Part shown: piece by piece, positions 1 to 40,571 of the stretch
Numbering within the stretch: position 1 is the stretch's first letter
How the letters are laid out: every line of letters starts with the position of its first letter
DNA from: an uncultured Bacteroidota bacterium
GTDB lineage: Bacteria; Bacteroidota; Bacteroidia; Bacteroidales; GCA-2748055
DNA: 43,828 nucleotides
Reading direction: 5' to 3'
NCBI GenBank assembly: GCA_937129385.1
Contig: CAKZNC010000215.1
Span: 1 to 43,828 of the forward strand
Made by a program: the position numbers and the translations under genes
Notes under the pieces: model-generated
The model's input: the letters and a program-made list of their open reading frames with translations, nothing else
Databases searched by the model: none
What the model was told of the DNA's origin: nothing

Positions 1-53
1 GCAGCCGGCAGTCAGTCAGCAGCCGGCAGTTCGCAGCCGGCAGTTCGCAGCCT
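1..53. repeat. degenerate heptanucleotide tandem repeat (GCAGNNN)
   Basis: Reads as GCAGCCG, GCAGTCA, a 4-base interruption, then GCAGCCG, GCAGTTC, GCAGCCG, GCAGTTC, GCAGCCT. The tract continues into an 8-bp period (TCATCAAC twice, then TCATAAAC) up to about position 75. The same GCAGTTC/GCAGTCA units return at 37886-37941. It lies upstream of the first gene. I see no TAnnTTTG promoter box in the 107 bp before that gene. Confidence 0.8.
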
Positions 54-16305: not shown

Positions 16306-17619
16306 CTATTTCATTTTGGCCTTCATGGCCAGTTTTTCCAGCATCTCGGTACTCACCGATTTTGGTCTTTCAAGGGGATAGCCAAGGGCGCGGTCCCAGA
16401 TGATATTGGCAGCGATACCGATGGATCGTCCGATGCCGAAGAGGACGGTATAGAAGTCATATTCGGTGACACCGTAATGCCATTGGATTACTCCTGACTG
16501 AGCGTCGACGTTTGGCCACGGGTTTTTCGCCTTTCCATGTTCCTTGAGGATATCGGGCACAACTTTATAGAGCATGTCGGTGTACTTAAAGAGGATATCA
16601 TCCTGGAGGTGTTTCTTGCTGAAGTCGCGTTGCAGCTTGTACCTCGGGTCGGTTTTCCTGAGTACGGCATGACCATATCCCGGGATCACCTGTCCGGAAT
16701 TCAGTGTATCCCAGACGAACTGTTTGATCTCCGCTTCGGTGGGCACCTTTCCGTCCATCCTGTGGACCAGGTCCTGCAGCCACCTGAGCACCTCCTGGTT
16801 TGCCAGTCCGTGCAGTGGTCCGGCCAGCCCGTTGATCATTGCAGAGATAGAAAGATAGATATCTGAAAGTGAGCTTGCCACGAGATGACCGGTATGTGCG
16901 CTTACATTTCCGCTTTCATGGTCGGCATGGATGATAAAGTGCATCCTGGCCACATCGTCATAAGGCTTGGGGATTCCCATCATGTGGGCAAAATTCCCTC
17001 CCATATCCATGTTTGGATTGGATTGTATCCTGTTCCCGTCGCGGTATAACTTGGCATAGATATAGGATGCGATCTCCGGCAGCTTGGCCAGCAGGTTCAG
17101 GCTGTCTTCATACATGGGGTCCCAGTAGTCGTTTTTACTGATCCCGGCGTGGTATTTTTTCGCAAAGAAGGACTCCCTGTGCATGGTCAGGATCGCCGTT
17201 GAGAATATGGCCATGGGGTGTGAAGCTGAAGGGAATGCATCGATGACTTCGTACACATATCTTGGAAGGATCCTTCGCTTGTTAAATTCATCGGCAACAT
17301 CTGCCACCTCTTTATCTGAGGGTACCTCACCCGTGAGCAACAGGTATAGTGCACCCTCAACGTAGGGCATTTCAGCGCCTTCGGGCTTGGGAAGTTTTTC
17401 AAAGACTTCGGGAAGTGTGTACCCGCGATAGCGAATACCTTCCTGCGGGTCGAGGTAGGAAATATCCGTTACAAGACTTTTCAAACCCCGCATTCCACCG
17501 ATTGCTTGTCCGATGGTCACTTCGTCGATGACCACATCACTGTGTTCCTTGATGAGCTTGGCTGTTCGGGGTCTCCAGAGATCAATTTTGTCTTTTAATT
17601 TTTGTTTAAGGTTTGACAT
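16306..17619 (-). CDS. gltA: citrate synthase, mitochondrial-like type
   Basis: A 437-residue citrate synthase that condenses acetyl-CoA and oxaloacetate into citrate, the entry to the TCA cycle. The start is MSNLKQKLKD; the open frame extends 53 codons further but that part is AT-rich leader and repeat sequence. Catalytic residues are His270 (GPLHGLANQEVL), His317 (PGYGHAVLRKTDPRY) and Asp372 (NPWPNVDAQSG). These blocks and HADHESGNVSAHTGHL and LERPKSVSTE closely follow animal and Geobacter citrate synthases rather than the hexameric GltA of E. coli or the short Gram-positive type. It lies 464 bp downstream of eno on the same strand. A short palindrome sits just upstream. Confidence 0.94.
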   Translation of the reverse strand: MSNLKQKLKDKIDLWRPRTAKLIKEHSDVVIDEVTIGQAIGGMRGLKSLVTDISYLDPQEGIRYRGYTLPEVFEKLPKPEGAEMPYVEGALYLLLTGEVPSDKEVADVADEFNKRRILPRYVYEVIDAFPSASHPMAIFSTAILTMHRESFFAKKYHAGISKNDYWDPMYEDSLNLLAKLPEIASYIYAKLYRDGNRIQSNPNMDMGGNFAHMMGIPKPYDDVARMHFIIHADHESGNVSAHTGHLVASSLSDIYLSISAMINGLAGPLHGLANQEVLRWLQDLVHRMDGKVPTEAEIKQFVWDTLNSGQVIPGYGHAVLRKTDPRYKLQRDFSKKHLQDDILFKYTDMLYKVVPDILKEHGKAKNPWPNVDAQSGVIQWHYGVTEYDFYTVLFGIGRSIGIAANIIWDRALGYPLERPKSVSTEMLEKLAMKAKMK

Positions 17620-17644
17620 ATTGTTACAGATTTGAATTTTAAAT

Positions 17645-17658
17645 GTAAAGTGCTTTAC
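17645..17658. promoter_or_regulatory. palindrome GTAAAG-TG-CTTTAC upstream of gltA
   Basis: A perfect 6-bp inverted repeat with a 2-bp spacer, centred about 32 bp before the gltA ATG and placed where a regulator could overlap the promoter. No canonical TAnnTTTG box is present in the gltA leader. It may be an operator or a chance palindrome. Confidence 0.3.
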
Positions 17659-17709
17659 AATATAACATATATATGGATATCTATCAATATTTAGATGTAT
17701 AAAATAGGG

Positions 17710-18018
17710 GAGAGAGGAGAGAGGAGAGTTAAGAGGGGGGGTGCACTTCGGCAGGCTCAGTGCACCATGGCTTCGCATATGCTTAAAGCCTCAATGCTCT
17801 CCGGACTTTTTTGCGCTCGATTGGCTTTTGACTTCTGAGCGATCTGCGGAATGAATTCCGCAGCTATATATTTGCGATCCCCGGCAAGTCTCCTGACTCT
17901 CGACCACCTCTTGATCCCGATACAACTCCTGTCGTCGGCTATCGGACCAGTCTCCCTTCGGTCGCCTGGCTCTCCTCTCGATCCTCGGCTCCCTCTTAAC
18001 TCTCCTCTCTCCTCTCTC
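17710..18018. mobile_element. element with perfect 28-bp terminal inverted repeats made of heptamers
   Basis: The left arm (17710-17737) contains AGAGAGG, AGAGAGG, AGAGTTA, AGAGGGG. The right arm (17991-18018) is its exact reverse complement, built from CTCTTAA then CTCTCCT units. They enclose 253 bp with two further perfect palindromes and no open frame of note. The right-hand tract continues with another CTCTCCT and CTCTTAA to 18027. This resembles a non-autonomous MITE-like element, but no transposase or target-site duplication is evident, so it may be an inverted repeat array only. Confidence 0.45.
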
Positions 18019-18023
18019 CTCTC

Positions 18024-18060
18024 TTAAATAAAAAGCCCCCCTGCACGAATACAGGAGGGC
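18024..18060 (-). terminator. intrinsic terminator after eno
   Basis: On the minus strand GCCCTCCTG and CAGGGGGGC form a 9-bp stem with one mismatch around an 8-base loop (TATTCGTG), followed by TTTTTATTT. It begins 23 bp after the eno stop codon. Confidence 0.85.
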
Positions 18061-19387: not shown

Positions 19388-19492
19388 GTATTTCGTATTT
19401 CGTATTGCGTATTGCGTGGTGCATAGTGCTCATTGCCCATTGCTCTTTGCCCATTGCTCTTTGCCCATTGCCCTTTGCCCTTCGCCTTTCCA
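19388..19492. repeat. 15-unit degenerate heptanucleotide array between eno and rplQ
   Basis: Fifteen consecutive 7-mers in perfect phase: GTATTTC, GTATTTC, GTATTGC, GTATTGC, GTGGTGC, ATAGTGC, TCATTGC, CCATTGC, TCTTTGC, CCATTGC, TCTTTGC, CCATTGC, CCTTTGC, CCTTCGC, CTTTCCA. Units drift gradually along the array while nearly all end in GC or TC. No insertion or deletion breaks the period. It begins 33 bp before the eno ATG (minus strand). Confidence 0.9.
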
Positions 19493-19532
19493 AAAAAAAG
19501 GGATAAAGCACCGCAAAGACACTCCATCCCCT
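19492..19532 (-). terminator. plausible intrinsic terminator of the ribosomal supercluster
   Basis: On the minus strand AGGGGAT and ATCCCTT pair around a 21-base loop and are followed directly by a run of eight T. It lies 25 bp past the rplQ stop. The long loop makes it weaker than the eno terminator. Confidence 0.5.
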
Positions 19533-19556
19533 CTATATTTCAAAAGCTGAGTGAAA

Positions 19557-20375
19557 TTATTCTTTATTCTTCTCGTCAGCTTTGTCTTCCTTTTTATCTT
19601 CCTCAGCATCAGACTTATCATCCTTCGCTTCAGCGGAAGCAGATTTGTCCTCTTTGGCTTCAGCAGCAGGAGTTTCCTCAACCTCTTCTGTCTTCTCTTC
19701 CTTCTTCTTCTCCACAGGTTTTTCTTCTTCTGCCTTGGCTGATGGTTGCTCATCTTTCTCAGCAGTCTTTTCCTCTGCAGCTTCCGCGCTGGCCTCCTCT
19801 TTCACCTCTTCAGCTGTCTCAGCAGCTTCAGCTTTGGGTTCGGCAGCCACCTCTTCAGTTGAAGTTTCAGTTGTTGCTTCCGCCGTAGCTTGTTCGGCAG
19901 CTTCCTCTTTAGGAGCAGATGCGTCAGTCTGTGCAGTTGTTTCCGACTTTTTCTTACCACCTCTTCTTCTCCTTGAGGAAGATTTCCTGGCTGCTGCTTT
20001 TTCAGCAAGCATATTCTCGTTGTAGTCAACCAGCTCGATGATACACATATCGGCATTGTCACCCAACCTGTTTCCAAGCTTGATGATCCTGGTGTATCCA
20101 CCCGGGCGGTCTGCTACCTTCTCTGCAATTTCGCGGAACAGTTCTGCGGTGGCCTCTTTATCCTGCAGGTATTTGAATACCTGGCGGCGTGAATGGGTAG
20201 TATCGTCCTTTGCTCGTGTAATGAGTGGTTCGATATATATCTTCAGTGCTTTCGCCTTGGCTGTTGTGGTCGTGATCCGCTTGTGCAAGATCAGCGAAGT
20301 AGCCATATTCGAAAGCATCGCATGTCTGTGTCCGCGCTTCCTGCTCAGGTGATTGATTTTCTTTCTATGTCTCAT
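19557..20375 (-). CDS. rplQ: 50S ribosomal protein L17 with long acidic C-terminal tail
   Basis: A 272-residue form of L17, about twice the E. coli length. Residues 1-121 are the conserved domain ([52 protein letters not shown]). Residues 125-144 form a basic linker with [12 protein letters not shown]. Residues 145-272 are a low-complexity Glu/Ala/Lys tail. The tail is in frame and ends with a normal stop before a terminator, so it is real coding sequence rather than a misread. Extensions are known in other Bacteroidetes L17 proteins; this one is long. L17 sits near the peptide exit tunnel, so the tail probably projects from the solvent side. It is the last gene of the supercluster, 5 bp after rpoA. 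Confidence 0.95.
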
Positions 20376-37885: not shown

Positions 37886-37941
37886 CCAGTCTGCAGTTCG
37901 CAGTCTGTAGTTCGCAGTTCGCAGTCAGCAGTCAGCAGGAG
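37886..37941. repeat. degenerate heptanucleotide array (GCAGTTC/GCAGTCA)
   Basis: Eight phased 7-mers: CCAGTCT, GCAGTTC, GCAGTCT, GTAGTTC, GCAGTTC, GCAGTCA, GCAGTCA, GCAGGAG. The units match those at positions 1-53 of the window. Confidence 0.9.
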
Positions 37942-37954
37942 GCAAAAGACCTCC

Positions 37955-38014
37955 GATCCCGGAGGGATCACATTATGTAGCCCCATATCGCAGATGCGGG
38001 GGAACCCACGTTCC
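37955..38014. repeat. triple-hairpin, REP-like intergenic sequence
   Basis: Three adjacent dyads: GATCCC-GGA-GGGATC (37955-37969), a CCCC/GGGG stem with AT-containing flanks (37981-38001), and GGAAC-CCAC-GTTCC (38001-38014). The arrangement resembles dispersed REP-type repeats. Only one copy is in the window, so membership in a family is unproven. Confidence 0.5.
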
Positions 38015-38092: not shown

Positions 38093-38127
38093 CTGATCGC
38101 TGAGGACTGAGAGCTGAAGGCTGCCAA
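38093..38127. repeat. degenerate heptanucleotide array (CTGANNN)
   Basis: Five phased 7-mers: CTGATCG, CTGAGGA, CTGAGAG, CTGAAGG, CTGCCAA. It is a different unit from the array 150 bp to the left. Confidence 0.75.
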
Positions 38128-40459: not shown

Positions 40460-40484
40460 TTTAATTTTTGCTGTATAATATCAA

Positions 40485-40516
40485 AAAGGCTGTCCGTTTG
40501 GATGGCCTTTTTTTTT
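40485..40516. terminator. bidirectional intrinsic terminator
   Basis: AAAGGCTGTCC and GGATGGCCTTT form an 11-bp stem (two wobble pairs) with a GTTT loop, followed by T residues on the plus strand and by TTTTTGATA on the minus strand. It ends fusA2 transcription and probably also that of the convergent lipoprotein gene. Confidence 0.88.
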
Positions 40517-40560
40517 AGTTAAGAGTTAAGAGTTAAGAGTTAAGAGTTAAGAGTTAAGAG
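40517..40560. repeat. perfect heptanucleotide array (AGTTAAG)x6
   Basis: Six identical AGTTAAG units from 40517 to 40558, starting directly after the terminator T-run. It is the only undiverged array in the window, suggesting recent expansion. AGAGTTA also occurs in the arms near gltA. Confidence 0.95.
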
Positions 40561-40571
40561 CAGAGAGATTT

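Follow-up and report, generated by a model that had tools for sequence, protein, structure and literature searches.

Heptanucleotide arrays in the spacers of a Bacteroidales genome, an apparent species-level burst absent from the closest sampled relatives

Dispersed heptanucleotide tandem repeats are reportedly found in one lineage, the cyanobacteria, as the STRR heptamers that Mazel is said to have described in 1990. REP elements are short intergenic palindromes in many copies. Why seven-base units dominate the long tandem repeats of many bacteria is a long-standing question. Mrazek 2007, as cited in PMC4679880, ranks heptanucleotides first in abundance among the long-unit classes of most genomes and proposes polymerase slippage as their origin; both PMC4679880 and PMC4692102 quote from that work the idea that polymerase contacts set the step of seven nucleotides. 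A later long-SSR survey came from the same group (PMC4060949). Three heptanucleotides of Calothrix are quoted in PMC4692102, and at the hmw1A promoter of Haemophilus influenzae heptanucleotide copy number changes in vivo in a phase-variable manner (PMC8262952). An earlier note on the DNA discussed here knew of no mechanism described for Bacteroidetes, but MacGregor 2015 (PMC4679880) reports TAACTGA arrays in five Bacteroidetes and quotes the slippage proposal of Mrazek 2007.

Period seven in the window and across the genome

The window, the whole stretch of 43,828 nucleotides that was analysed, is contig C215 of a 4.28 Mb host genome in 236 contigs (G000), whose best rplQ matches among named genomes are metagenome-assembled Bacteroidales, so that its order is probably the same. 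The 7-bp period that the earlier note had listed for seven stretches is borne out in all of them by matches at lag 7: 26 of 46 in array 1-53 (29 of 39 at lag 14), 15 of 21 in 17711-17738, 22 of 28 in 17993-18027, 76 of 98 in 19388-19492, 35 of 49 in 37886-37941, 17 of 28 in 38093-38127 and 35 of 35 in 40517-40558. Tandem Repeats Finder (minimum score 30) calls six of the seven and misses 38093-38127, which is weak yet beyond chance (mononucleotide shuffle, p about 5e-5, one of 20,000); five pass the stricter counting score of at least 14.

Gene calls throughout took the longest ORF, which may put individual distances in error, and the names eno, rplQ, rpsL, EF-G and citrate synthase were recognised from translations. 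The window itself begins inside an array, a class B heptamer array of AGCCGGC/AGTTCGC units at the contig start (G000:C215:1; 1-53, plus strand). Upstream of the citrate synthase gene lies the first half of an inverted pair, a class A/D array of AGAGGAG (17706-17735, plus strand), with a P1-type palindrome, GGTGCACTTCGGCAGGCTCAGTGCACC (17740-17766, plus strand), directly 3' of it and a P2-type palindrome, CTGCGGAATGAATTCCGCAG (17844-17863, unstranded), in the same gap. The longest ORF of citrate synthase (16306-17778) extends upstream through this array, its true start being probably near 17619 (MSNLKQK); that ORF callers extend genes into such arrays is a caution for annotation. The second half of the pair, a class A/D array with AGAGGAG on the minus strand (17993-18024), follows immediately 3' of the predicted intrinsic terminator of eno (18035-18060, minus strand; consensus match and fold).

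The main array (19388-19490, minus strand) lies between the rplQ terminator and the eno start and has about 15 units, of class C (AATGGGC/AAAGGGC) drifting to AATACGC/ACGAAAT; it begins where the T tract of the rplQ terminator hairpin (19496-19534, minus strand) ends. RplQ itself (19557-20375) has 272 aa with a long charged, low-complexity C-terminal extension that is present in relatives too. Another class B array occupies the rpsL/EF-G gap (37887-37938, plus strand), with a P3-type palindrome, GATCCCGGAGGGATC (37955-37969, unstranded), 16 nt 3' of it, and is followed by the weak, degenerate array (38093-38127, minus strand). The last is a class A array (40517-40567, plus strand) with six AGTTAAG units, perfect at 40517-40558, which begins where the T tract of the terminator hairpin of the EF-G-like gene (40483-40512, plus strand) ends. 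Arrays 19388, 40517 and 17993 each begin where a terminator T tract ends, that of rplQ, the EF-G-like gene and eno, respectively. Rfam gave no match anywhere in the window.

The preponderance of period seven extends well beyond this contig. An unbiased sample of 62 loci, which together span 766,466 bases or about 18% of the genome, was composed of contig stretches picked regardless of repeats, at most the first 20 kb per contig and without contigs C7, C9 and C197, which had been taken for their matches. It holds 36 period-7 segments with a score of at least 14, versus 9 for period 12, 8 for period 15 and 0-4 for each remaining period from 4 to 24 other than multiples of 7; the possibility raised earlier that other periods equal 7 bp in frequency thus fails across about 18% of the genome (36 versus 0-9). 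A first set of 42 loci (471,972 bases) had given 26 period-7 arrays at the same score versus 0-5 for the other periods between 4 and 24, multiples of 7 excluded, and a dinucleotide shuffle of that set, one per locus, gave none of period 7. Autocorrelation at 7, 14 and 21 is raised in intergenic DNA, while coding DNA displays the codon period alone. The arrays share with heptanucleotide long SSRs a tandem 7-nt unit beyond chance, a dominant period of seven and a mainly intergenic location.

Placement was assessed on 76 arrays, 35 of them from 18 loci of the same genome on contigs with class C matches, loci that are excluded from the density figures; strand-based counts use 75, one array of unclear strand having been dropped. 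The earlier note had placed the arrays at operon edges only, but in the wider sample they occur in every type of gap: 27 lie in co-directional, 17 in convergent and 10 in divergent gaps, and the remaining 21 of the 75 border a contig end. Arrays take up the space that separates a stop codon or terminator from the gene that follows. A stop is reached by 35 of 75 arrays, and an edge falls between 5 nt inside and 20 nt outside a start in only 3 of 75. Several arrays that precede start codons end, judged by eye, short of a TAnnTTTG sequence, which we take to be a promoter-like motif.

Unit words, drift and comparison with relatives

Read on the purine-rich strand, the commonest words are AGTTAAG, AGTCGGC, AAGGGGC, AATGGGC, AAAGGGC and AGTGGGC, with AGTTAAG the top word in 20 of 76 arrays; 161 of the 1172 possible strand- and rotation-free words occur in arrays. 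The units had been described as unrelated, a view that is mostly not borne out, for most arrays belong to a few oriented classes (AGTTAAG, AGTCGGC, AATGGGC) that grade into each other. AGAGAGG and CTCTCCT are reverse complements, and AGTGGGC changes in register to AATGGGC within the arrays of L022 at 8285 and L015 at 16245. Six of the seven window arrays fit a shared unit profile that was built without them (3.25-4.84 bits per unit, rotation and strand free); the exception is 38093-38127, at 1.66 bits. In simulations, random heptamer arrays have a mean of 0.9-1.2 bits and 1.5-9% of 600 reach the window scores, which makes each single profile test modest; of nine foreign arrays, two (L117, L088) come to 3.2-4.3 bits as well. 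Because the fit is this loose, the idea that all arrays belong to one strict unit family was rejected, and the claim is limited to linked word classes. A long AGTAATC/AGCCTTC array with a 14-nt super-period (L063:2498-2720) forms a separate class.

Within arrays the sequence drifts unit by unit, as had been noticed for the eno-rplQ array, where mean unit identity at lags 1 to 7 is 0.78, 0.77, 0.65, 0.66, 0.60, 0.57 and 0.50. Across the 47 arrays of at least eight units, identity drops from 0.80 between adjacent units to 0.55 between units seven apart (lags 1 and 7), versus 0.64 to 0.62 when the order of units is shuffled (observed lag 1, z +19.6). This decay with distance is the signature of local stepwise duplication accompanied by point mutation; a selected fixed spacing predicts no decay.

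G003 belongs to the same genus, and its alignment with the window shows a conserved gene order, with an identity of 83% for the longest block and 69-83% for the full set of blocks. Its sample, which leaves out ten contigs of less than 1 kb and includes both C26, syntenic with the window, and C46, the site of its one class C match, contains one period-7 segment in 756,000 bases; the congener G002 has one in 228,014 bases. Four window junctions aligned to congeners have orthologous gaps without arrays, and six further junctions compared with G003, one of them on the stop side only, have no array either. At rplQ-eno, G003 and G002 keep the rplQ terminator, followed by eno with no array between them, and the junction is likewise array-free in G014 and G024 (with G002, the three of 20 rplQ loci that were compared). 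The host array adds length to this spacer, while at L192 (8894) the host spacer is about as long as that of G003 and different in sequence, as if replaced.

Searches by word give the same picture. AGTTAAG-type 21-mers (one mismatch allowed) occur in one of 28 family genomes, many of them incomplete, and that one is the host; an exact match to three successive AGTTAAG units is found in 5 of 395 genomes of the phylum, with 131 overlapping matches in the host and 2-3 in each of the other four. The class C pattern has 229 matches in the host and 0-1 in each of three congeners. On the sequences sampled, then, the period-7 arrays are a species-level burst, absent from the closest sampled relatives. 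Gain of arrays is likelier than their loss in G003, though such a loss is possible, because two congeners are array-poor and 27 of the 28 family genomes have no AGTTAAG arrays. A recent burst beside syntenic, array-poor congeners of up to about 83% DNA identity offers junctions in a before-and-after state.

Other genomes carry heptamer arrays of their own. The rplQ loci of 80 relatives (864,271 bases) contain 18 period-7 segments in 13 loci. Multiples of 3 reach 13-21 segments, as coding DNA gives, and each of the remaining periods, multiples of 7 aside, has 0-5. Another Bacteroidales genome (G426) has an independent 165-bp ACGATTA/ACGAATT array at the very same rplQ-eno junction (L147:6721-6885) and 283 overlapping matches to ACGAWTN repeated three times, versus 0-2 in the other genomes searched. 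At L134, GGTAGAA units come straight after the TAG stop of eno, and that genome (G423) has 47 matches to three GTAGAAR units (one mismatch allowed), versus 0-2 in the others searched. The notion that each genome has a private vocabulary is contradicted by ACGAWTN, of which four successive units occur in 14 of 149 genomes of the host's order, from 14 families (reversed control: 3 genomes with 1-8 matches); some words recur widely and others do not. The recurrence of ACGAWTN in these genomes suggests a sequence preference or horizontal movement beyond the slippage of chance founders. That period seven returns with other words in other Bacteroidales points to machinery, away from sequence.

The reading that we consider somewhat more probable than not is that a genome-wide heptanucleotide set spread after the congener split, grown by slippage, copied ectopically and confined to dispensable spacers. 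Arrays would lengthen and shorten by strand slippage in whole 7-nt units, which is the simplest cause of their period, drift and variety of length. New sites may have been seeded by ectopic copying from existing arrays, through template switching or a gene-conversion-like repair, which would explain why few words and certain linkers are shared. The step of seven might come from the replication machinery, after the proposal of Mrazek 2007, given that period seven returns in other lineages with different words. Purifying selection would restrict arrays to dispensable DNA, and a positive function need not be invoked. A copying process with a 7-nt step was one of two suggestions in the earlier note, and it gains support from the dominance of period seven, the similarity of neighbouring units and the absence of arrays at aligned orthologous junctions. 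Two candidate contributors were discarded: reverse transcriptase (of a DGR, retron or group II intron) as the copying agent, as PF00078 (RVT_1) is found in none of three genomes (host, G002, G003) while the controls matched, and loss of mismatch repair, as MutS_V genes are present (three in the host, two in G002, three in G003).

Stop codons, palindromes and rival readings

Slippage alone does not account for two properties of the arrays, their strand polarity and their one-sided palindromes. A gene end was counted as having an array when the array fell between 9 nt before and 12 nt after the end of the stop, and at such ends the purine-rich strand is sense in 29 cases and antisense in 2 (p about 5e-7). 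The 29 sense cases have 23 TAG, 5 TAA and 1 TGA stops, versus 154 TAG in 716 genes without an adjacent array (Fisher p about 2e-10); the stop is TAG in 14 of the 16 cases in which it lies wholly outside the array. The unbiased loci and the window alone yield 13 sense and no antisense arrays at gene ends, with TAG in 10 of 13. At many stop codons the array runs up to the codon or into it. In convergent gaps 15 arrays share this polarity with respect to the nearer stop and 2 oppose it, and in co-directional gaps the bias is weaker (17 sense versus 10). Replication-strand orientation seems a doubtful cause of the polarity, some gaps carrying arrays in both orientations.

Orthologues indicate how such stops could have arisen. 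The TGA of G003 after ENL is TAG in the host at L016, the TAA after HFK is TAG at L192 (8895), and a TGA has become TAG relative to G003 at L014 (DNA alignment alone). At L192 (12429) the host gene is 7 codons shorter than its G003 orthologue and the array supplies the TAA. Among 119 array-free orthologue pairs, TAA corresponds to a host TAG in 16 of 67 and TGA in 4 of 30. The orthologue cases are few. We infer that arrays extend through the spacer as far as the stop codon's first base, and that the AG at their head then makes up the rest of a TAG; the TAG effect is a readable mark of how far an array has run into the neighbouring gene.

Matches to three kinds of palindrome pattern were counted up to 140 nt from each array: 20 of 75 arrays have one on the 3' side of the purine strand and 1 of 75 on the 5' side. 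P1 (CTTCGNCANGCTCAG core) reaches 9.1 sites per Mb in the unbiased host loci, with no site in the samples of G003 and G002; 14 of 76 arrays have it within 250 nt, and it is missing from all 352 array-free gaps. Its family (GCCCTGAGCYTGTCGAAGGGC and GTGCAC variants) is represented at 17740-17766 and at L011, L015, L022, L033, L034, L038, L064, L066 and L204; the P2 and P3 patterns are also found outside this species. At both L015:63-76 and L016:4042-4055 the identical 14-base linker, AAGATCGTTTTAGA, stands between an AGTTAAG array and an AGTCGGC-like one, and a 12-base linker beside AGTCGGC-like units recurs at two other loci, neither linker being present in the G003 sample. Linkers shared between loci argue for copying between sites.

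Since polarity and palindromes fall outside slippage, array and palindrome might together form a non-autonomous mobile cassette. It would go in, or take the place of existing DNA, after a T (of a terminator T tract or the first base of a stop), leading with its AG end, and a transposase or a repair pathway would move it. The T-AG boundaries at stops and terminators, the 3' placement of several palindrome families, the restriction of P1 to the neighbourhood of arrays in this species and the two linkers all speak for it, as does the one Y1_Tnp gene of the genome, but on balance it is an unlikely account. No palindrome match lies within 140 nt of 54 of 75 arrays (for 6 of the 75, the 3' sequence available was shorter than 60 nt), the P3 pattern is permissive and frequent (67.8 per Mb in the host, 39.7 in G003), the sequences linking array and palindrome mostly differ, and no target-site duplication is seen by eye in the aligned junctions. 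Y1_Tnp (PF01797) is single-copy, with one match in the host (G000:C164:9008-9343), one in G002 and none in G003 or G001; with a copy in the nearly array-free G002, this single Y1 transposase seems not to track the arrays and is a doubtful agent for them. The host copy is a possible agent for moving the palindromes. A broader formulation, to which we give similarly little credence, is that AG-led arrays with a 3' palindrome could be mobile spacer DNA that copies itself after a T, overwrites the spacer to the first base of the stop and donates the AG of TAG, different words recurrently colonising the same junctions, such as rplQ-eno, across Bacteroidales.

Still less probable is that the arrays are functional gene-end elements of RNA or DNA, be it purine-rich 3' UTRs with stops in all frames, formers of G-quadruplexes or R-loops, or sites for RNA-binding proteins. 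Their sense polarity after stops would suit such a role, their placement is the same as that of the G-rich heptamers of Xanthomonas and Nostoc, AGTTAAG repeats give TAA in all three frames within 21 nt, and a G3N1-7 x4 motif is contained in 21 of 76 arrays. However, congeners have no arrays at the same genes, so those genes do not require them; AGTCGGC and AATGGGC repeats contain no stop codon, and G4 motifs are barely commoner than in G003 (15 in 766 kb versus 12 in 756 kb). RNA folding is not notable for the AGTTAAG array (z +0.65) and weak for the 19388 array (z -1.97).

The other suggestion of the earlier note, selection on a 7-bp spacing by helical phasing or a protein filament that holds the period while the sequence drifts freely, is very improbable: phase is indeed held over about 15 units in 19388-19492, but unit similarity decays with distance instead of staying flat, few words dominate, length and class vary, arrays settle wherever a gap offers room and the sampled congeners have no arrays. 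An artefact of short-read or metagenome assembly is scarcely credible, for although 5 of 62 contig starts and 2 of 45 natural contig ends have an array within 150 nt (about 1% expected), an enrichment indicating that they tend to break assembly, they also lie inside contigs between genes ordered as in G003 and G002, and unit words and some linkers agree across loci.

Comparison with known systems

The arrays resemble the long heptanucleotide SSRs of Mrazek 2007, as these are quoted, in an over-represented 7-nt unit, a very uneven distribution among species and slippage as the proposed origin; they differ in that the units are degenerate, the congeners lack the burst, stop codons are overrun and palindromes are associated. 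In Rehm 2015 (PMC4692102), the GGGNATC repeats of Xanthomonas and Nostoc are likewise intergenic heptamers with the G-rich strand sense after the stop (29 of 31 here), inverted pairs and varied copy number. However, 83% of them are reported at the same place in two Xanthomonas genomes, whereas here the congeners have no arrays, and relative to GGGNATC only part of the present set is G4-capable (21 of 76 arrays, as a sequence motif). The TAACTGA repeats of Beggiatoaceae, cyanobacteria and five Bacteroidetes, as reported in MacGregor 2015 (PMC4679880), are also intergenic heptamers and form long mixed arrays in some Bacteroidetes and Microcystis. They consist of one word, which in the main species stands mostly just upstream of starts, in contrast to the many words here, where a stop adjoins 35 of the 75 arrays and a start is within 20 nt of 3. 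Neither GGGNATC/GGGGAYT nor TAACTGA is among the 25 commonest array words. The hmw1A repeat is described as a single locus with a regulatory effect (PMC8262952), compared with hundreds of matches genome-wide in the present case.

A literature text search for the array words and the P1 palindrome found no paper, and a search whose coverage left most subscription papers outside returned no report of a congener-absent burst, stop-codon overrun, palindrome polarity or repeated colonisation of a junction. The resemblance to REP elements lies in the palindromes beside a minority of arrays, the arrays themselves being, unlike REP, not palindromic; the cyanobacterial STRR are said to be similarly dispersed heptanucleotide repeats, with different words and in a different phylum. 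Overall, heptanucleotide arrays are a known kind of bacterial repeat, which in this genome is unusually invasive.
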